In this document: in pieces, positions 4,852 to 64,000 of the stretch | Layout: every line of letters starts with the position of its first letter | Position numbering within the stretch: the stretch's first letter is position 1 | Assembly: GCF_000427905.1 (NCBI RefSeq) | Contig: NZ_ATYX01000010.1 | Span: forward strand, 80,499 to 144,498 | Length of the DNA stretch: 64,000 nt | Direction of reading: 5' to 3' | Source: Thermocrispum agreste DSM 44070 | GTDB lineage: Bacteria > Actinomycetota > Actinomycetes > Mycobacteriales > Pseudonocardiaceae | Position numbers and translations under genes: made by a program | Notes under the pieces: model-generated | Databases searched by the model: none | Seen by the model: only the letters and a program-made list of their open reading frames with translations | Told to the model about the DNA's origin: nothing

Positions 4852-6064
4852 ACTGGCCCGCTCGCACACCGAGGTCGCACCGGCGACCGCGGTCCGGCTC
4901 GTCGCGCAACGCGAGATCGACACCCGGCTGCGCACGCGGTCGTTCGTGATGTCGACCGCGGTGATCATCGCCGTGCTGGCCGGCTACCTGCTGCTGCAAG
5001 CGTCCCTGTTCAGCGACGCGCACCGGGTCGACGTCGGCCTGACCGGCCAGGCCACCAGCATCGCCGGACCGTTGCAGGTCGCCGGGAAGGCGGTCGGGCT
5101 CGAAGTGCACACCACCCAGGTCGGCGACCGCACGGCGGCGCGCGCCAAGCTGGAGGCCGACGAGCTGGACGCGGTGGTGTTCGGCAACCCGGCCGAACCC
5201 GAGGTGCTGGTGCGCTCCGAGCTCGACGACCGCCTGCGTGCCGTGTTGATCGACATCGCCCGGCAGCAGATCCTCACCGGGGAACTGGCCAAGGCCGGGG
5301 TGACCGATCCGCGGGCGGTGCTCGCCCAGGCAAGCCAGGCGGACGTCGAGGTGACCACGGTCGCGCCGGCCGGCGCGGAACACGGCCAGCGGCTCGGCAT
5401 CGGCCTGATCATGGTGTTCCTGCTGTTCATGGCGATCAGCACGTACGGGACCATGGTCGCCCAGGGGGTGGTCGAGGAGAAGGCCAGCCGGGTGGTGGAG
5501 ATCCTGCTGGCCACCGTGCAGCCGTGGCAGCTGCTGCTGGGGAAGGTCGTGGGGATCGGGCTGGTCGGGCTGGCGCAGCTGGTGATCGTCGCCGGCGTCG
5601 GCCTGGTCATGGCCGTCGCCAGCGGTGTGGTGACGTTGTCCGGTGTCGCCATCGGCGCCCTGATCTGGGGTGTGGTCTGGTACGTGGTCGGCTTCTTCTT
5701 GTACGCCACGTTGTTCGCTGCGGCCGGCTCGCTGGTCTCTCGGCAGGAGGACGTACAGTCCGTCGTCACGCCCGTGACGATCGTGCTGACGCTGGGCTTC
5801 GTGGTCGGCTTGAACCTGATGCTGCAGAACCCGGACGGCACGGGTGTGGCGGCTTTGTCGCACGTGCCGTTGCTGTCGCCGGTGATCATGCCGGGGCGGA
5901 TCACCGCAGGCCAGGTCGCCGGGTGGGAGATCGCCCTGTCGCTGATCGTCACGCTTGCCGCCGTGGTGGCGCTGACCTGGCTCGGCGGCCGGGTGTATCA
6001 CAATGCGGTGCTGCACACCGGAAGCCGCATGCGGGTGCGGGACGCGCTGCGCGGAACCCGCTGA
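4844..6064 (+). CDS. ABC-2 type transporter permease (NatB/YhaP-like)
   Basis: Membrane partner of the preceding ATPase. The 406-residue protein has one N-terminal membrane segment (about residues 30-50), a large extracytoplasmic domain, then about five membrane segments in the C-terminal half. The motif VVEEKASRVVEILLATVQPW is characteristic of the ABC2_membrane_3 (NatB/YhaP) family. The start chosen is ATG 4844, with GGGAG five bases upstream; it overlaps the ATPase stop by eight bases. Family members export sodium, drugs or peptides; nothing here shows which. Confidence 0.88.
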   Translation: MRELARSHTEVAPATAVRLVAQREIDTRLRTRSFVMSTAVIIAVLAGYLLLQASLFSDAHRVDVGLTGQATSIAGPLQVAGKAVGLEVHTTQVGDRTAARAKLEADELDAVVFGNPAEPEVLVRSELDDRLRAVLIDIARQQILTGELAKAGVTDPRAVLAQASQADVEVTTVAPAGAEHGQRLGIGLIMVFLLFMAISTYGTMVAQGVVEEKASRVVEILLATVQPWQLLLGKVVGIGLVGLAQLVIVAGVGLVMAVASGVVTLSGVAIGALIWGVVWYVVGFFLYATLFAAAGSLVSRQEDVQSVVTPVTIVLTLGFVVGLNLMLQNPDGTGVAALSHVPLLSPVIMPGRITAGQVAGWEIALSLIVTLAAVVALTWLGGRVYHNAVLHTGSRMRVRDALRGTR

Positions 6065-6087
6065 ACGGGACACGGCCGAACGACGAA

Positions 6088-6117
6088 GGCCCGCGGGCCA
6101 CTCGGGCGCCGCGGGCC
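6088..6117. terminator. hairpin between convergent ABC permease and citrate synthase genes
   Basis: GGCCCGCGG (6088-6096) pairs with CCGCGGGCC (6109-6117) across a 12-base loop. It is symmetric and lies between two convergent genes, so it may act in both directions. There is no T-run. Confidence 0.5.
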
Positions 6118-6153: not shown

Positions 6154-7464
<1,311 letters not shown>

Positions 7465-7669
7465 GGGTGGTCCTCTCACGTGGATTGGGGATTCGGCCCT
7501 AACCTAGCTGAACATCGCCGATCCCCGCAGCACGCCGACGACTATCCGTCACCACGATCACGATCCGATCGGGTGAGACAACTCACTCTGTCGTCCACTA
7601 GGTCTTGGGACAGGGGCGCTCGGTAGTCTTTAGCGACCAGCTGTTCGCATGAAGTCGCAAGGGAGCGCC

Positions 7670-8818
7670 ATGCCTGCCGAGCGTCTGCTGCCTTCCACCG
7701 AGGCCGAGGACTTGGTCTCGCTGGCGCGGGAGATCGCCCGCGAGGAGTTGGCCCCGCTGGCCGCCGAGTACGAGGAACAGTCCAGGTTCCCGCGCGAGCA
7801 GTTCCGGCTGCTGGGCAAATCTGGCCTGCTCGGACTGCCTTACCCGGAGCGCTGGGGCGGCGGAGACGTGCCGTACGAAGTGTACCTCCAGGTGCTGGAG
7901 GAGATCGCCACGGCGTGGATGTCGGTGGGCGTCGGGCTGTCCGTGCACACCATGTCGTGCTACGCCCTCGCGCACTACGGGACTGATGAACAGCGTGACA
8001 AGTGGTTGCCGGCCATGCTGGGCGGTGACCTGCTCGGCGCGTATGCGCTGTCGGAGCCGCACGCCGGTTCCGACGCCGCAGCGCTGTCCACCAGAGCAGT
8101 TCACTCCGGGGACGAATATGTGATCAACGGCACGAAGGCGTGGATCACGCACGGCGGCGAAGCGGACTTCTACACCACGATGGTCCGCACCTCCCCGGAC
8201 GGCGGCAAAGGCATCACGTGCCTGCTGGTGGACGCCGAGACGGAAGGGCTGAGCGCGGCCGAGCCCGAGAAGAAGATGGGCATGACGGCCTCCACGACTG
8301 CCCAAATGATCTTCGACGACGCGCGCGTCCCGGTGGAGCGGCGCATCGGCGACGAGGGGCAGGGGCTGCGCATCGCGCTGGAGTCGCTGGCGTCCGGACG
8401 GCTGGGGATCGCCGCGTGCGCGGTCGGCCTCGCCCAGGCGGCGCTGGACGAAGCGGTGGCGTACGCCAAGGAGCGCACGCAGTTCGGCCGGCCGATCATC
8501 GACTTCCAGGGCGTGGAGTTCATGCTGGCGGACATGGCCGCCGCGGTGGAGTCGGCGCGGGCGACCTACCTCGATGCGGCCCGCCGCAGGGACCGAGGCA
8601 TGCCGTTCGCGCGGCAGGCGGCGATCGCGAAGCTGATCGCCACGGACAACGCCATGAAGGTCACCACCGACGCGGTGCAGATCCTCGGCGGCGCCGGCTA
8701 CACCAGGGACTTCCCGGTGGAGCGGTACATGCGGGAGGCGAAGGTGCCGCAGATCTTCGAGGGCACCAACCAGATCCAGCGGCTGGTGATCGCGCGAGAG
8801 CTGCGGAAGTCGTCGTGA
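7670..8818 (+). CDS. acyl-CoA dehydrogenase
   Basis: FAD-dependent alpha,beta-dehydrogenation of an acyl-CoA. The 382-residue protein has the three-domain ACAD architecture: an N-terminal helical domain, the FAD/substrate signature [14 protein letters not shown], the [10 protein letters not shown] helix, and [20 protein letters not shown] followed by [12 protein letters not shown]. The Glu in EGTNQ is in the catalytic-base position of short/medium-chain ACADs. ATG 7670 follows AAGGGAG; an ATG 21 bases upstream has no ribosome-binding site. It may work in short-chain fatty acid or branched-chain amino acid breakdown; there are no partners next to it to decide. Confidence 0.92.
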
Positions 8819-57074: not shown

Positions 57075-57980
57075 GTGACTCTCGCAAAGAGCCGGATTCC
57101 GGACACCTATCCGACCCGACTCGCCAGCGGGCGGGCGCAGCTGCTCGAGCGGACAGACCCCACCGTCTGGGGCGACGAAGCGGACGGCCCGTTCGACGCG
57201 GCCGGGCTGGCGGCGCACGACAAGAACGGCTACACCATCATCGAGGGCCTGCTGACCCCCGCCGAGGTGCAGACCTACTGGCAGGAGCTGAAGCGGCTGA
57301 CCAGCGACGAGCAGCTCAAATCGGACGAGCGGGTGGTGACCGAGAAGCGCTCCGGCGAGATCAGGTCCATCTTCGAGGTGCACAAGATCAGCGAGGCCAT
57401 CGCCGAGCTGGCCACCGACCCGCGCATCTTGGACCGGGCACGGCAGATCCTCGGCTCCGAGGTGTACATCCACCAGAGCCGGGTCAACTACATGCCCGGA
57501 TTCCGCGGTACCGGCTTCTACTGGCACTCGGACTTCGAAACCTGGCACGCCGAGGACGGCATGCCGCGGCCGCGGGCGGTCAGCTGCTCGATCGCGCTGA
57601 CCGACAACTACCCGTTCAACGGCGGGCTGATGGTCATGCCGGGATCCCAGCGGACGTTCGTGCAGTGCATCGGCGAGACGCCGGAGAACCACTACAAGAA
57701 CTCGTTGCGCGAGCAGGAGATCGGCGTGCCGAGCGAGGAGAACATCACCAAGCTGGCCGCCGAGCACGGCATCGACCAGTTCACCGGGCCCGCCGGGTCG
57801 GCGCTGTTCTTCGACTCGAACATCATGCACGGGTCGGGCAACAACATCACGCCGTTCCCGCGCTCGAACATCTTCCTGGTGTTCAACAGCGTCGAGAACA
57901 CGTTGGTGGAACCGTTCGCGGCGCCCGCACCGCGTCCGGAATTCATCGCCGCTCGGGACTTCACGCCGCTGACGCGCTGA
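57075..57980 (+). CDS. ectD: ectoine hydroxylase
   Basis: Fe(II)/2-oxoglutarate dioxygenase converting ectoine to 5-hydroxyectoine, 301 residues. The family signature FYWHSDFETWHAEDGMP holds iron ligands His151 and Asp153; the third, His252, is in SNIMHGSGNN. N-terminus (SRIPDTYPTR) and length match EctD. GTG 57075 follows AGGAGG. The ectABC genes usually found with ectD are absent here, so it is a solitary copy, or ectABC lie elsewhere. Confidence 0.95.
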   Translation: MTLAKSRIPDTYPTRLASGRAQLLERTDPTVWGDEADGPFDAAGLAAHDKNGYTIIEGLLTPAEVQTYWQELKRLTSDEQLKSDERVVTEKRSGEIRSIFEVHKISEAIAELATDPRILDRARQILGSEVYIHQSRVNYMPGFRGTGFYWHSDFETWHAEDGMPRPRAVSCSIALTDNYPFNGGLMVMPGSQRTFVQCIGETPENHYKNSLREQEIGVPSEENITKLAAEHGIDQFTGPAGSALFFDSNIMHGSGNNITPFPRSNIFLVFNSVENTLVEPFAAPAPRPEFIAARDFTPLTR

Positions 57981-58033
57981 CGGTACCCGCCGGGGCTTCA
58001 TAGCCGTCATCACCGGCGGCTCGCCGACGCCCA

Positions 58034-58068
58034 CAGGCCGTGCAGGAGCTTTCCTGCACGGCCTGTTT
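58034..58068 (+). terminator. intrinsic terminator of ectD
   Basis: Perfect 14-bp stem (58034-58047 with 58052-58065, CAGGCCGTGCAGGA) closed by a GCTT loop and followed by TTT, 53 bases after the ectD stop. The only hairpin in the window with at least a short U-run. Confidence 0.85.
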
Positions 58069-58480
58069 CGTCCGTTCGCAGCCTCCCGCAGCTTGCGTCC
58101 GTATGCCGGCCTCCGCTGTTTCCGTCCGCGCCCTGCCTTCTGTGCTGGGTACGTTCGTTCGCCACCCTCACCTGCGCTCTACCAGCGCATTCGACGCGAT
58201 TGGACCAGTCACGACGCATCTCACCGCGCTCCCGCCCGTCCGGATCGAGTTTGTCCAGGTCAGGGCCGCACCAAACGGAAGATCTCCGGTCACGGCCTCG
58301 CCCGCACCACATGAATTCACCCATTGGCTTGTGAGCTGAGCCATAATCAACTTCGCGGGGGCACTGCGGGTCGACTCCTCCAGCAGCGCGTAACCGATCG
58401 ACTCCGTCGACCGAAGTCGCGTTGCAAGGGGATGCTCCGTGTCCTCACGTGCCCGCAAGGATCGGACGCTTGGAGGAGCT
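58069..58480. other. glpF upstream interval
   Basis: About 410 bases without a gene. CATAAT at 58342-58347 could be a -10 element for glpFK, but I see no -35 at a proper distance and no obvious GylR-type operator. Confidence 0.35.
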
Positions 58481-59299
58481 GTGAACCTAGGAACGGTATT
58501 CGTCAGTGAGCTGGTCGGCACAGCCATGCTGATCTTGCTGGGCGCGGGCGTGGTCGCCAACGTGCTGCTCAGGAAGAGCAAGGGCTACGACGGCGGCTGG
58601 CTGCTGATCAACATCGGGTGGGGTTTGGCCGTGTTCGCCGGCGTCTACGTCGCCTACCGGAGCGGCGGCCACATCAACCCGGCCGTCACGCTCGGCATCC
58701 TGGCCAGCGGAGAAGCGGAATACGCGCCCGGCGTGGCCATCACGTTCGGATCCACGTTGGTCTACATCGCCGCACAGTTCATCGGAGCGTTCATCGGAGC
58801 CTGCCTGGCATGGGCGGCCTACAAGCCGCATTTCGACAACGACCCGGACGAGTCCAAGAAGCTCGGCGTCTTCTCCACCGGTCCGGAGATCCGCAACTAC
58901 GGGTGGAACTTCACCACCGAGGTGATCGCCACGTTCGTGCTGGTCTTCGTCATCCTCAGCTTCGGCAAGACGCCGACCGGCCTCGGCCCGCTCGCTGCGG
59001 CGCTGCTGGTGGTCGCGATCGGTGCCTCGCTGGGTGGCCCGACCGGGTACGCCATCAACCCGGCTCGTGACCTCGGCCCCCGAGTGGCGCACGCAGTGCT
59101 GCCGTTGCATTACAAGGGCTCCCGTGCGGCCGCCCGCGTGGCCGCCGGTGCAGGCGGCGAGCTGCCGGAGGACCCTGGTCCCGGCTCGGACGCCCCCGGC
59201 AAGAAGGGCTCCAGCGACTGGGGTTACTCGTGGGTGCCGGTGTTCGGCCCGATCGTGGGTGGTGTGCTGGCTGGGTTGCTGTCCCAGGCTCTGCTGTAA
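58481..59299 (+). CDS. glpF: glycerol uptake facilitator (aquaglyceroporin)
   Basis: 272-residue MIP channel with both NPA boxes: HINPAVTLG (NPA at 66-68) and AINPARDLGPR (193-197). The Asp after the second NPA is typical of glycerol facilitators. Six membrane segments; the last loop has a Gly/Pro-rich insert (EDPGPGSDAPGKK). GTG 58481 follows GGAGGAG closely; a GTG 42 bases upstream would add 14 basic residues. glpK follows after 60 bases. Confidence 0.92.
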   Translation: MNLGTVFVSELVGTAMLILLGAGVVANVLLRKSKGYDGGWLLINIGWGLAVFAGVYVAYRSGGHINPAVTLGILASGEAEYAPGVAITFGSTLVYIAAQFIGAFIGACLAWAAYKPHFDNDPDESKKLGVFSTGPEIRNYGWNFTTEVIATFVLVFVILSFGKTPTGLGPLAAALLVVAIGASLGGPTGYAINPARDLGPRVAHAVLPLHYKGSRAAARVAAGAGGELPEDPGPGSDAPGKKGSSDWGYSWVPVFGPIVGGVLAGLLSQALL

Positions 59300-59359
59300 C
59301 CGACCGCCGGATCACCTCCGGCACATCCCGACCGACAAGCTCGCAAAAGAAGGGACATC

Positions 59360-60874
59360 ATGGCTTCTTACGTCGCAGCGATCGACCACGGCACGACCTC
59401 CACTCGCTGCATGATCTTCGACCACTCCGGCGGTGTCATCGCCAGCGAGCAGCGGGAGCACGAGCAGATCTTCCCGCAGGCAGGCTGGGTCGAGCACAAC
59501 CCGGAAGAGGTGTGGGAGAACACGCGAGCGGTCGCCGCGGGCGCGCTGGCCAAGGCGGACCTGACGGCGGGCGACATCGCTGCGGTCGGCATCACCAACC
59601 AGCGCGAGACGACCGTGGTGTGGGATCGCAAGACCGGCAAGCCGGTGTACAACGCGATCGTCTGGCAGGACACCCGCACCGACCGCATCATCGCCAAGCT
59701 CGGTGACCTGGGCGGCGGCCAGGAGCGCTACCGGGAGAAGACCGGGCTGCCGCTGGCCACCTATTTCTCCGGTCCGAAGGTGATGTGGATCCTGGAGAAC
59801 GTCGACGGCGCGCGTGAGCGCGCCGAGGCGGGTGACCTGCTGTTCGGCACGATGGACAGCTGGTTGCTGTGGAACATGACCGGCGGCCCGGACGGCGGGT
59901 TGCACATCACCGACCCGACCAACGCGTCCCGGACGCTGCTGATGGACCTGGACACGCTGAACTGGGACCCGGACATCGCGTCGGACATGGGCATCCCGAT
60001 GTCGATGCTGCCGGAGATCAGGTCGTCGTCCGAGGTCTACGGCACGGTCCGGGAGCGGGGCGCGCTCGGCGGAGTGCGCATCGCAGGCATCCTGGGCGAC
60101 CAGCAGGCGGCCACGTTCGGCCAGGCCTGCCTGTCGCCGGGCGAGGCGAAGAACACCTACGGCACCGGCAACTTCGTGCTGCTCAACACCGGCACCGAGA
60201 AGGTGCTGTCGCAGAACGGCCTGCTCACCACGGTTTGCTACAAGATCGGCGACAACGCACCGGTGTTCGCGCTGGAAGGCGCGATCGCGGTGACCGGGTC
60301 GCTGGTGCAGTGGCTGCGCGACAACCTGAAGATGATCAGCTCGGCGGCCGAGATCGAGGAGCACGCCCGCACGGTCGAGGACAACGGTGGCGCCTACTTC
60401 GTGCCGGCGTTCTCCGGCCTGTTCGCGCCGTACTGGCGGTCCGACGCCCGTGGCGCCATCGTCGGCCTGACCCGCTACGTCAACAAGGGTCACCTGGCCA
60501 GGGCGGTGTTGGAGGCGACGGCGTTCCAGTCGCGCGAGGTGATCGACGCGATGAACGCCGACTCCGGTGTGCCGCTGAAGTCGCTGAAAGTCGACGGCGG
60601 CATGGTGGTCAACGACCTGCTGATGCAGTTCCAGGCCGACATCCTCGGTGTACCGGTGATCCGCCCGGTGGTGAACGAGACCACCGCGCTCGGCTCGGCG
60701 TACGCGGCGGGCCTGGCCGTCGGATTCTGGGAGTCCGAGGAGGACATCCGGAACAACTGGGCCGAGGACAAGCGCTGGGAGCCGAACATGGACGAGGCCC
60801 GGCGCGAGCGCGAGTACAAGAACTGGAAGAAGGCGGTCACCAAGACCTTCGGCTGGGTCGAGGACGAGGACTGA
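59360..60874 (+). CDS. glpK: glycerol kinase
   Basis: Phosphorylates glycerol to sn-glycerol 3-phosphate, 504 residues, full length for the FGGY family: [71 protein letters not shown], and [20 protein letters not shown]. Cotranscribed with glpF; glpD and a GylR-type regulator are not in the window. Confidence 0.96.
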
Positions 60875-62227: not shown

Positions 62228-63454
62228 GTGAGTACGCCGACGTTCACCGCTGTCTTGCGGGTGGCCGAGTTCCGGGCCATGTGGCTGGCCGAGGTGTTGT
62301 CGGTCGCGGGAGACCAGATCGCCCGCGTCGCGCTGTCCGTGCTGGTGTTCGACCGGACGGACTCGGCGGCGCTGACCGCGCTGACCTACGCGCTGACGTT
62401 CCTGCCCGCCCTGGTCGGCGGAGTCATGCTGTCCGGCCTCGGTGACCGTCACCCGCGACGCACCGTGATGATCGCCAGCGACATCGGCCGCGCCGTTCTG
62501 GTCGGCCTGATGATCGTCCCGGGCATGCCGCTGTGGGCGCTGTGCGCGTTGGTGGCCGCGGTGACGTTGCTGAACGGCCCGTTCAAGGCGGCACAGCAAG
62601 CGCTCCTGCCGGACGTGCTCACCAACGGCAAGTTCCGGGTCGGCATGGCGCTGCGGAACATCAGCTCGCAGGCGGCCCAGCTGGCCGGGTTCGCCGGCGG
62701 AGGCTTGATGGTCGCGCACTGGGGGCCGTTCGTGGCGCTTGCCGTCAATGCGGGCACGTTCGTGGCATCGGCCGCGCTGCTGCTCCTGTTGCGCCGTCGT
62801 CCTGCGGTGACGCCCAGCTCGAAGGAGGGGCAGCAGTCCTACCTGTCCTCCATCGCCGCCGGAGCCGCGCTGGTGTTCCGCGTTCCTGCCTTGCGCACGC
62901 TGCTCGCGCTGAACTGGCTCGCCGGGTTCTACGTCGTGGCCGAAGGCCTTGCCGCACCGTACGCCGACGAGATCGGCGCAGGACCAGCCGCGGTGGGTCT
63001 GCTGATGGCGGCCGACCCGCTCGGCTCGGTCATCGGCGCCGCGATCTTCGGCCGCTGGGTCTCCGAGGAGACCAATGTGCGCGCGCTCGGCCTGCTCGGC
63101 ATCGCGGCGGGCATCCCGCTGATCCTGCTGGCGCTGAAGCCCGCACTGATCGTGGCCCTGGCACTGCTGGCGCTGTCCGGCGCATTGGCCACGGGATATC
63201 ACTTCCAGACCGTCGTGCAGTTCACCGAGCGCCTGCCGGACGAACGACGCGCGCAGGGCACCGGCCTGGCGTCCTCCGGGGTGATCACCGTCCAGGGCCT
63301 CGGCGCGCTGGCCGCCGGTGGGCTGGCCGACCTCATCGGAGCGGCGAACGCCATCGGCGTGGCCGCGGTGGCTGGTGTGCTCGTCGCGATCCCGATCGCG
63401 ATCTCGTGGGCCCGGGTACGCCACACGCCGCCGGTTCGGAGCGCAGCAGCATGA
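62228..63454 (+). CDS. MFS transporter (EntS-like, MFS_3 type)
   Basis: 408 residues with about 12 membrane segments. RVAEFRAMWLAEVLSVAGDQ, GLGDRHPRRTVMIASDIGRA and NGPFKAAQQALLPDVL are typical of MFS_3-type exporters. GTG 62228 follows GGGGGGAG. It is convergent with the hexapeptide cistron array, ending about 50 bases from it. Substrate unknown; an exporter beside a peptide array is suggestive but no more. Confidence 0.85.
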   Translation: MSTPTFTAVLRVAEFRAMWLAEVLSVAGDQIARVALSVLVFDRTDSAALTALTYALTFLPALVGGVMLSGLGDRHPRRTVMIASDIGRAVLVGLMIVPGMPLWALCALVAAVTLLNGPFKAAQQALLPDVLTNGKFRVGMALRNISSQAAQLAGFAGGGLMVAHWGPFVALAVNAGTFVASAALLLLLRRRPAVTPSSKEGQQSYLSSIAAGAALVFRVPALRTLLALNWLAGFYVVAEGLAAPYADEIGAGPAAVGLLMAADPLGSVIGAAIFGRWVSEETNVRALGLLGIAAGIPLILLALKPALIVALALLALSGALATGYHFQTVVQFTERLPDERRAQGTGLASSGVITVQGLGALAAGGLADLIGAANAIGVAAVAGVLVAIPIAISWARVRHTPPVRSAAA

Positions 63455-63504: not shown

Positions 63505-63525
63505 TCAGTCGTCTCGATTCGCCAC
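63505..63525 (-). CDS. hexapeptide cistron 8 (terminal, MANRDD)
   Basis: GTG start, codons for Met-Ala-Asn-Arg-Asp-Asp, TGA. Last and most divergent copy: Arg is CGA, the sixth residue is Asp instead of Asn, and only a weak GGGACGG stands upstream. A T-run on the plus strand (63501-63505) touches its stop. Confidence 0.5.
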   Translation of the reverse strand: MANRDD

Positions 63526-63577
63526 CACGAAAGCCGTCCCGCAAGCACGCGAGCGACGTCCCGACCGTACGAAAGCC

Positions 63578-63598
63578 TCAGTTGTCCCGGTTGGCCAT
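63578..63598 (-). CDS. hexapeptide cistron 7 (MANRDN)
   Basis: ATG start, GCC-AAC-CGG-GAC-AAC, TGA. AGGGGAG lies about seven bases before the ATG. Confidence 0.65.
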   Translation of the reverse strand: MANRDN

Positions 63599-63647
63599 CT
63601 CGGACTCCCCTCTGTTCGGCTGCCGACCCTGCACCCCAGCGACCACG

Positions 63648-63668
63648 TCAGTTGTCCCGGTTGGCCAC
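63648..63668 (-). CDS. hexapeptide cistron 6 (MANRDN)
   Basis: GTG start, GCC-AAC-CGG-GAC-AAC, TGA. GGAGGTG six bases before the start. Confidence 0.7.
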   Translation of the reverse strand: MANRDN

Positions 63669-63718
63669 TGCCTACACCTCCGATTCCGTGACGAAGCCCG
63701 CACGTAGTCACCGACCGC

Positions 63719-63739
63719 TCAGTTGTCGCGGTTGGCCAT
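63719..63739 (-). CDS. hexapeptide cistron 5 (MANRDN)
   Basis: ATG start, GCC-AAC-CGC-GAC-AAC, TGA. GGGAGGTG six bases before the start. Its upstream 70 bases are identical to those of cistron 2. Confidence 0.7.
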   Translation of the reverse strand: MANRDN

Positions 63740-63784
63740 GTCCAGCACCTCCCTGTCGTCGCCCGGACCTGTCGGCTCACCTGC

Positions 63785-63805
63785 TCAGTTGTCCCGATTC
63801 GCCAT
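63785..63805 (-). CDS. hexapeptide cistron 4 (MANRDN)
   Basis: ATG start, GCG-AAT-CGG-GAC-AAC, TGA. GGAGGTG five bases before the start. Confidence 0.7.
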   Translation of the reverse strand: MANRDN

Positions 63806-63846
63806 GTCCACACCTCCTCACCGCAGAACCCAACCGGCTGCCGCTG

Positions 63847-63867
63847 TCAGTTGTCCCGATTCGCCAC
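63847..63867 (-). CDS. hexapeptide cistron 3 (MANRDN)
   Basis: GTG start, GCG-AAT-CGG-GAC-AAC, TGA. GGAGGTG four bases before the start. Confidence 0.7.
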   Translation of the reverse strand: MANRDN

Positions 63868-63909
63868 CGCACACCTCCGCTCGACTCGCTCCCGCTCTCC
63901 ATCACCCGC

Positions 63910-63930
63910 TCAGTTGTCCCGATTGGCCAT
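63910..63930 (-). CDS. hexapeptide cistron 2 (MANRDN)
   Basis: ATG start, GCC-AAT-CGG-GAC-AAC, TGA. GGGAGGTG six bases before the start. Confidence 0.7.
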   Translation of the reverse strand: MANRDN

Positions 63931-63975
63931 GTCCAGCACCTCCCTGTCGTCGCCCGGACCTGTCGGCTCACCTGC

Positions 63976-63996
63976 TCAGTTGTCCCGATTCGCCAT
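63976..63996 (-). CDS. hexapeptide cistron 1 in window (MANRDN)
   Basis: ATG start, GCG-AAT-CGG-GAC-AAC, TGA. Only four bases upstream are in the window, so its ribosome-binding site cannot be seen. Confidence 0.65.
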   Translation of the reverse strand: MANRDN

Positions 63997-64000
63997 GTCC

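Follow-up and report, generated by a model that had tools for sequence, protein, structure and literature searches.

Repeated six-codon minigenes beside a membrane GGDEF gene in Thermocrispum agreste and other actinobacteria: candidate peptide signals

An array of six-codon genes and its two neighbours

We analysed a 64,000-nucleotide window of the Thermocrispum agreste DSM 44070 genome (contig NZ_ATYX01000010.1, hereafter C12, positions 80,499 to 144,498), which ends in an array of very short genes. As an earlier reading of the letters alone (the sequence-only reading) had described, eight 21-base open reading frames (ORFs) lie on the minus strand between 63505 and 63996 at intervals of 62-73 bases. 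Seven encode MANRDN. These are found at 63976-63996 (the last copy visible before the contig end), 63910-63930, 63847-63867, 63785-63805, 63719-63739, 63648-63668 and 63578-63598. The terminal copy at 63505-63525 encodes MANRDD and so holds the one Asn-to-Asp change reported for the array; like the copies at 63847 and 63648, it starts with GTG. A clear Shine-Dalgarno (SD) sequence, GGGGAG in the copy at 63578-63598, precedes six of the seven copies with visible upstream sequence. The exception is the terminal copy, and this too agrees with the first description.

The window ends exactly where the contig ends (base 144,498), and the SD of the outermost copy would lie on a second contig, C10, if the two join. 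C10 carries 12 more copies in the same orientation at bases 39-797 (L006:39-797, minus strand). By eye, the contig ends (C12 end CGCCATGTCC, C10 start CACACCTCCTC) fit a single array, and the continuous string occurs at about 63800-63820 of the window. The assembly break falls inside the repeat. The original count of at least eight copies is thereby enlarged to 20 visible copies on two contigs, and to at least 20 in the array, of the form SD followed by M-[A/T/R]-N-R-D-[N/D]-stop. The C10 copies encode MANRDN and MTNRDN, beginning with ATG or GTG, and include a single MANRDD that begins with ATA; the first copy in transcription order encodes MRNRDN. Nearly all copies are complete cistrons as proposed; the description fails for the copy with the ATA start and for one with a weak SD.

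Copy number has been raised in this genome to the 20 visible copies, in line with the suggestion of gene-dosage amplification. The linkers had been called unrelated outside the ribosome-binding site, which does not hold for 63715-63809 and 63906-64000: these two stretches of minigene plus linker are 98% identical over 95 bases. The 95-base blocks are a recent block duplication and show a possible route of array growth. A 15-base core pattern matches 20 times in the T. agreste genome and 12 times in its congener; any match was found in 45 of 390 family genomes, mostly a single one, and the sole other close pair was in genome G031. Core matches in other genomes that lacked an SD and a start codon were set aside as chance, with two exceptions that proved real (L023 and L042).

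The array stands between two larger genes. Within the window, 50 bases separate the end of the last minigene from the end of a convergent gene of the major facilitator superfamily (MFS; 62228-63454, plus strand), whose product of 408 amino acids is a predicted exporter (PF07690, E 9e-27; PF05977, E 2e-12). Following the array past 64000 reached its first copy and, about 106 bases beyond it on C10 and hence outside the window, the ATG of a divergent GGDEF gene (L006:904-2208, plus strand). This partner on another contig was out of sight of the sequence-only reading, which also did not connect the MFS gene with the array. The GGDEF protein combines a membrane domain of several helices with a GGDEF domain at its C-terminus (PF00990, E 1.5e-48). 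Its GGEEF active-site residues 345-349 are invariant in 49 sequences, and with this intact motif it is a predicted diguanylate cyclase. Both neighbours are the same in the congener Thermocrispum municipale DSM 44069 (Pseudonocardiaceae), with identities of 87% (GGDEF) and 90% (MFS), and in Labedaea (L029, the same locus as L090), with 56% and 64%. In the T. municipale locus (L028, identical to L085), 12 copies flank a run of N; MHNRDN comes first, followed by the MSNRDN and MANRDN types. Further from the array, translations read by eye at 57075-60874 resemble an ectoine hydroxylase-like dioxygenase, an aquaporin or glycerol facilitator and a glycerol kinase; the same three gene types also lie near the module in T. 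municipale.

Selection on the peptides and linkage to a GGDEF family

We asked at which level the minigenes are conserved. Across 21 arrays, with related genomes included and the variants hence non-independent, 29 of 35 distinct codon variants were synonymous against 10.8 expected, and none of 200,000 simulations reached 29. Counting began at codon 3 and took each variant a single time per codon and array, with transitions weighted twofold; codon 2 was excluded on account of its variable residue (A, T, S, R, H, C, G), and the contig-end copy and copies of unusual length were omitted. The variants include switches between codon boxes for arginine (CGN and AGG) and serine (TCN and AGY), and the stop codon may be TGA, TAG or TAA. 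In four arrays that were measured, copies were 85-96% identical, compared with 27-33% over the 28 bases after the stop. The SD pentamer ends mostly 5-10 bases before the start. The synonymous excess and the varying stops indicate that the peptide is under selection, and the minigenes are thus selected at the amino-acid level, with MANRDN as the selected frame, as had been argued.

These data bear directly on whether the array is instead a non-coding DNA or RNA element, such as an operator array. A short, conserved core lying between divergent and convergent genes would suit such an element. Yet homologous arrays vary mainly at synonymous sites, contrary to the free variation at first and second codon positions by which the sequence-only reading would have been refuted. 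Ser and Arg codon boxes and stop codons are switched, and start and SD are retained in every lineage. An Rfam scan of loci L006 and L007 matched no family in the array, its lone match being a tRNA at L006:10928-11010. We consider a non-coding element very improbable. The frames run for 5-8 codons from start to stop and have no leader or signal peptide; two longer double-unit variants, read by eye, also lack an obvious leader.

The minigenes are not confined to Thermocrispum. From 390 family genomes, 30 loci were fetched by the N-terminal region of the GGDEF protein, and all 30 have a minigene at the corresponding place. Searching named genomes with this region, aligned, as the query yielded 66 loci, which belong to Thermocrispum, Actinophytocola, Haloechinothrix, Amycolatopsis, Kutzneria, Labedaea, Herbihabitans, Solihabitans, Kibdelosporangium, Fodinicola and Sciscionella. 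A six-codon SD-led gene occupies the divergent position in 64 of them, so that the MANRDN-like frames sought in other genomes are found as recurring minigenes beside one GGDEF family. In 62 loci the minigene is of an [RK][DEG] type (for example MCGRDN, MRSRDN, MNGRED, MAGRDQ or MATREG), as a single copy in 52 and in 2-12 copies in 10. Two Sciscionella loci have MASNGL instead, and no minigene was found in the remaining two of the 66 (L107, L119).

When strict SD criteria were applied, the divergent strand gave 71 candidate ORFs, 60 of them with exactly six codons, and the other strand gave three, none of this length. Within 500-nt windows, an SD-led ORF of 6-8 codons was present in 62 of 65 loci (L098, which is truncated, was omitted), whereas 100 Markov shuffles averaged 3.0 such loci and never exceeded 7. 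Far windows and the other strand gave one of 65 each. The third miss, L130, encodes MCGRDQ behind a weaker SD. Between the GGDEF start and the minigene, just before the SD, a palindrome, CCAGGTCA-N7-TGACCTGG, was seen in L091, L095 and L106, which is possibly an operator or an RNA hairpin. Since these three of the 11 loci scanned are all from Kutzneria, it is not a general part of the module.

Convergent MFS genes occur in 46 of the 66 loci; in nine the gene lies elsewhere in the locus and in 11 it is absent, an absence that is valid only within the roughly 3 kb that the loci span on each side. All 46 loci with a convergent MFS gene have a minigene, and all four without the [RK][DEG] type also lack the MFS gene. 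Of the 11 MFS-less loci, seven have an [RK][DEG]-type minigene and two have MASNGL. The constant neighbour of the minigenes is the GGDEF gene, which is present even where the MFS gene is missing.

This pattern matters for one of the three functions first suggested, namely that the minigenes are minimal precursors of ribosomally synthesized and post-translationally modified peptides (RiPPs). The product would be a small modified compound or antibiotic exported by the MFS protein, with the cyclase regulating or responding to it. Biarylitide precursors are equally short, with coding sequences of five or six codons, and the MFS protein has weak similarity to a ryptide exporter model (E 1.3e-7), although its 31 bits are far under the cut-off of 575. 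However, biarylitides and other minimal RiPPs are defined by an adjacent P450 or another enzyme that modifies the peptide. Here no such enzyme was recognised as a constant neighbour, where constancy was assessed for the GGDEF and MFS genes and other ORFs were inspected by eye in L006, L028 and L029. Because of this, and with the GGDEF gene constant even without the MFS gene, we regard RiPP precursors as an unlikely explanation.

Peptides that differ with the cyclase

More distant GGDEF genes carry different peptides. Of 20 further GGDEF loci with 38-51% identity, minigenes are evident in 14, questionable in L204 and absent from L203, L207, L209, L212 and L217; the MFS gene is convergent in 15 of the 20. 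The 14 loci encode MRGRDY, MGSTKDQ, VRNKNW (arrays in two loci), VRNRSW (an array), VRNRDL, MRNKDL, MSDRGN, M/VRNRES (x7), MRNRES (x2), MDNRDT, MRNRDS, MNGRED and, with five codons, M/VNKDW (x3). T. agreste itself has a second module on contig C1 at about 618-621 kb (L181:4188-7198), with its own GGDEF gene (GGDEF-B), minigenes and a convergent MFS gene (MFS-B). Its minigenes encode MSDRDF (5841-5861 of L181) and VNDRDF (5916-5936).

At the level of the class, the GGDEF N-terminal domain occurs in 30 of 394 genomes, and an automatic scan found MR[DGA]..W-type minigenes in 16 of 29 loci. One family, possibly the Micromonosporaceae, has arrays of seven- and eight-codon genes in the corresponding place (MRDNTWT, MRDNNWN, MRDSNWT, MRGNSWD, MRDTTWS, MRANSWD, MRDNKWSR). 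The longest array of this type has 13 copies (genome G558), and the MFS gene is convergent in nine of the family's loci (L183-L188, L190, L191, L193). In one of these, L183 (= L152) of genome G649, a 15-codon ORF, MRDTNWVLRDTNWSW, has the unit fused twice at about 7370-7760, with four complete copies and one cut by N, counted by eye. A degenerate MRD(N/T)xWx pattern gave 45 matches in 10 of the 394 genomes, all no more than 730 nt upstream of a GGDEF match; a reversed-pattern control gave none. Other candidates were seen at class-level loci L165, L170, L171, L176, L178 and L179, and MASVVQWG takes the place at L180 (= L201). Candidates at L175 and L177 were not convincing, and the class-level scan found none at L172, L173 and L174. 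A doubled unit was also noted by eye in Kutzneria buriramensis (L093), where an SD-led 26-residue ORF has GRPSEWR twice with partly different codons per unit. It lies just upstream of a second GGDEF gene (4871-6106, minus strand), between GGDEF and MFS genes.

Another proposed function was an effect of translation itself: the short cistrons could titrate ribosomes, lead to drop-off of peptidyl-tRNA or regulate a transcript that is antisense or divergent. Each copy does have an SD and a stop, and minigenes of the lambda bar type, which like the E-peptide minigenes are SD-led and have few codons, work by drop-off. These known minigenes act in cis on the ribosome, usually have 2-3 codons in the case of drop-off, and are not tandem arrays paired with a cyclase. 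Here, the residues persist while their codons change synonymously, most loci have a single copy (52 of 66) and no downstream gene in the same direction is constant. Such an effect also leaves unexplained why the peptide changes with the cyclase paralogue, and we judge it somewhat less probable still than RiPP precursors.

We then compared peptide and protein divergence by partial Mantel tests on distances between the last four peptide residues, using chosen loci and hand-typed peptides. In 46 loci, the peptide was correlated with the N-terminal domain after control for the catalytic domain (r 0.41, p 0.0005, the lowest p obtainable with 2000 permutations) and after control for the 100 catalytic columns that vary most (r 0.35, p 0.0005), whose mean distance of 0.65 compares with 0.56 for the N-terminal domain. 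Conversely, no correlation was seen with the catalytic domain (r -0.10, p 0.90) or its variable columns (r 0.01, p 0.43) given the N-terminal domain. In the 35 loci with an MFS gene, the peptide followed the N-terminal domain given the MFS protein (r 0.35, p 0.0005) but not the MFS protein given the N-terminal domain (r 0.01, p 0.37); given the catalytic domain, the MFS value was r 0.20 (p 0.04). Mantel statistics ignore shared ancestry, and for three loci with two GGDEF genes each (L091, L093, L106) the better-scoring one was taken, its adjacency to the minigene unchecked. These sequence comparisons are suggestive of a peptide that diverges with the membrane domain of the cyclase, not with its catalytic domain or the MFS protein.

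This result also weighs on whether the peptides act only inside the cell, where a free penta- to octapeptide would bind the cyclase or another partner in the cytosol and the MFS protein would be an efflux valve or have a separate job. No signal sequence is encoded, and most of the 11 MFS-less loci keep a minigene, both of which would fit. Against this stand the divergence with the membrane domain instead of the cytosolic catalytic domain, and the MFS gene, which faces the minigenes convergently in 46 of 66 loci and is found again in another actinobacterial family. We find a purely intracellular role unlikely, though it is the strongest of the alternatives.

The membrane domain itself matched no Pfam model above cut-off. 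MASE9 (PF20972) gave a match below the cut-off in three of 48 members (best E 0.0027) and none in the first member. With the N-terminal alignment as query, no PDB sequence matched at E up to 1; a Foldseek search of the PDB with the N-terminal model gave no match below 0.001, and neither did a viral fold library. The predicted model looks similar to the S component of energy-coupling factor (ECF) transporters, whose fold has six helices. The protein is like MASE-type diguanylate cyclases in joining a multi-helix membrane domain to an intact GGDEF domain, and differs from them in a sensor that has no Pfam match above cut-off and is modelled as S-component-like. We know of no membrane-sensor cyclase that is paired with a peptide gene.

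A proposed peptide signalling module

At the level of sequence, there are minigenes with codon-level selection, a recurring linkage to GGDEF genes, peptides that differ by lineage and paralogue, and array amplification in some lineages. The simplest account of the linkage, the paralogue-specific peptides, the codon-level selection and the array growth is that the peptide is the ligand of the GGDEF membrane domain. We therefore favour, with a probability of roughly 60%, a leaderless peptide signal that is exported by the MFS protein and sensed by the membrane domain, changing the level of cyclic di-GMP (c-di-GMP); of the three functions first suggested, the peptide signal is thus preferred. The array may be transcribed as one RNA and each copy translated to release peptides of 5-8 residues; the initial Met is probably cleaved off where Ala, Ser or Thr follows and retained where Arg follows. 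The MFS protein would export the peptide, which is the weaker step of the model. The peptide would then bind in the membrane domain, for which a likeness to ECF S components is predicted; the cyclase would face the cytosol, and binding would alter c-di-GMP. Growth of the array would raise the dose while leaving the peptide unchanged.

Pheromones of Gram-positive bacteria such as Phr/Rap and PapR/PlcR also have products of 5-7 residues, with lineage-specific sequences and a gene beside that of the receptor, here a proposed one. Those peptides arise by cleavage of secreted pre-pro-peptides, and tetratricopeptide proteins in the cytosol read them, whereas here the gene is no longer than its product, often repeated, and beside membrane GGDEF and MFS genes. 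PatS/HetR of Anabaena likewise acts through a motif of five residues (RGSGR), which governs development in a filamentous bacterium; there, the motif ends a longer peptide or protein and its target is a DNA-binding protein. We know of no arrays, MFS protein or c-di-GMP link in that system. A search of open-access literature found no report of a module of peptide minigene, GGDEF and MFS genes, which does not imply its absence from print.

Since the arrangement recurs with changed peptides in other actinobacteria, the peptides are likely a kind of signal that has not been described. More tentatively, and at a little under even odds, they may form a widespread actinobacterial peptide language. Genes of 5-8 codons, often in arrays of up to 20 or more copies, would yield their signals straight from translation, to be exported by partner MFS proteins and read by cyclases with S-component-like sensors, each paralogue having its private peptide and one genome running parallel c-di-GMP channels. 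The genes are far shorter than annotation normally reports, so the module could have been overlooked in antibiotic producers such as Amycolatopsis. If the proposal is true, few protein-coding genes known to be under selection would be as short as these minigenes, and no peptide signal has, to our knowledge, been linked to a membrane diguanylate cyclase before. With its many cognate and non-cognate pairs of peptide and cyclase, the idea lends itself to direct tests. In Streptomyces, c-di-GMP controls development through BldD, and the peptides could therefore gate sporulation or antibiotic production.
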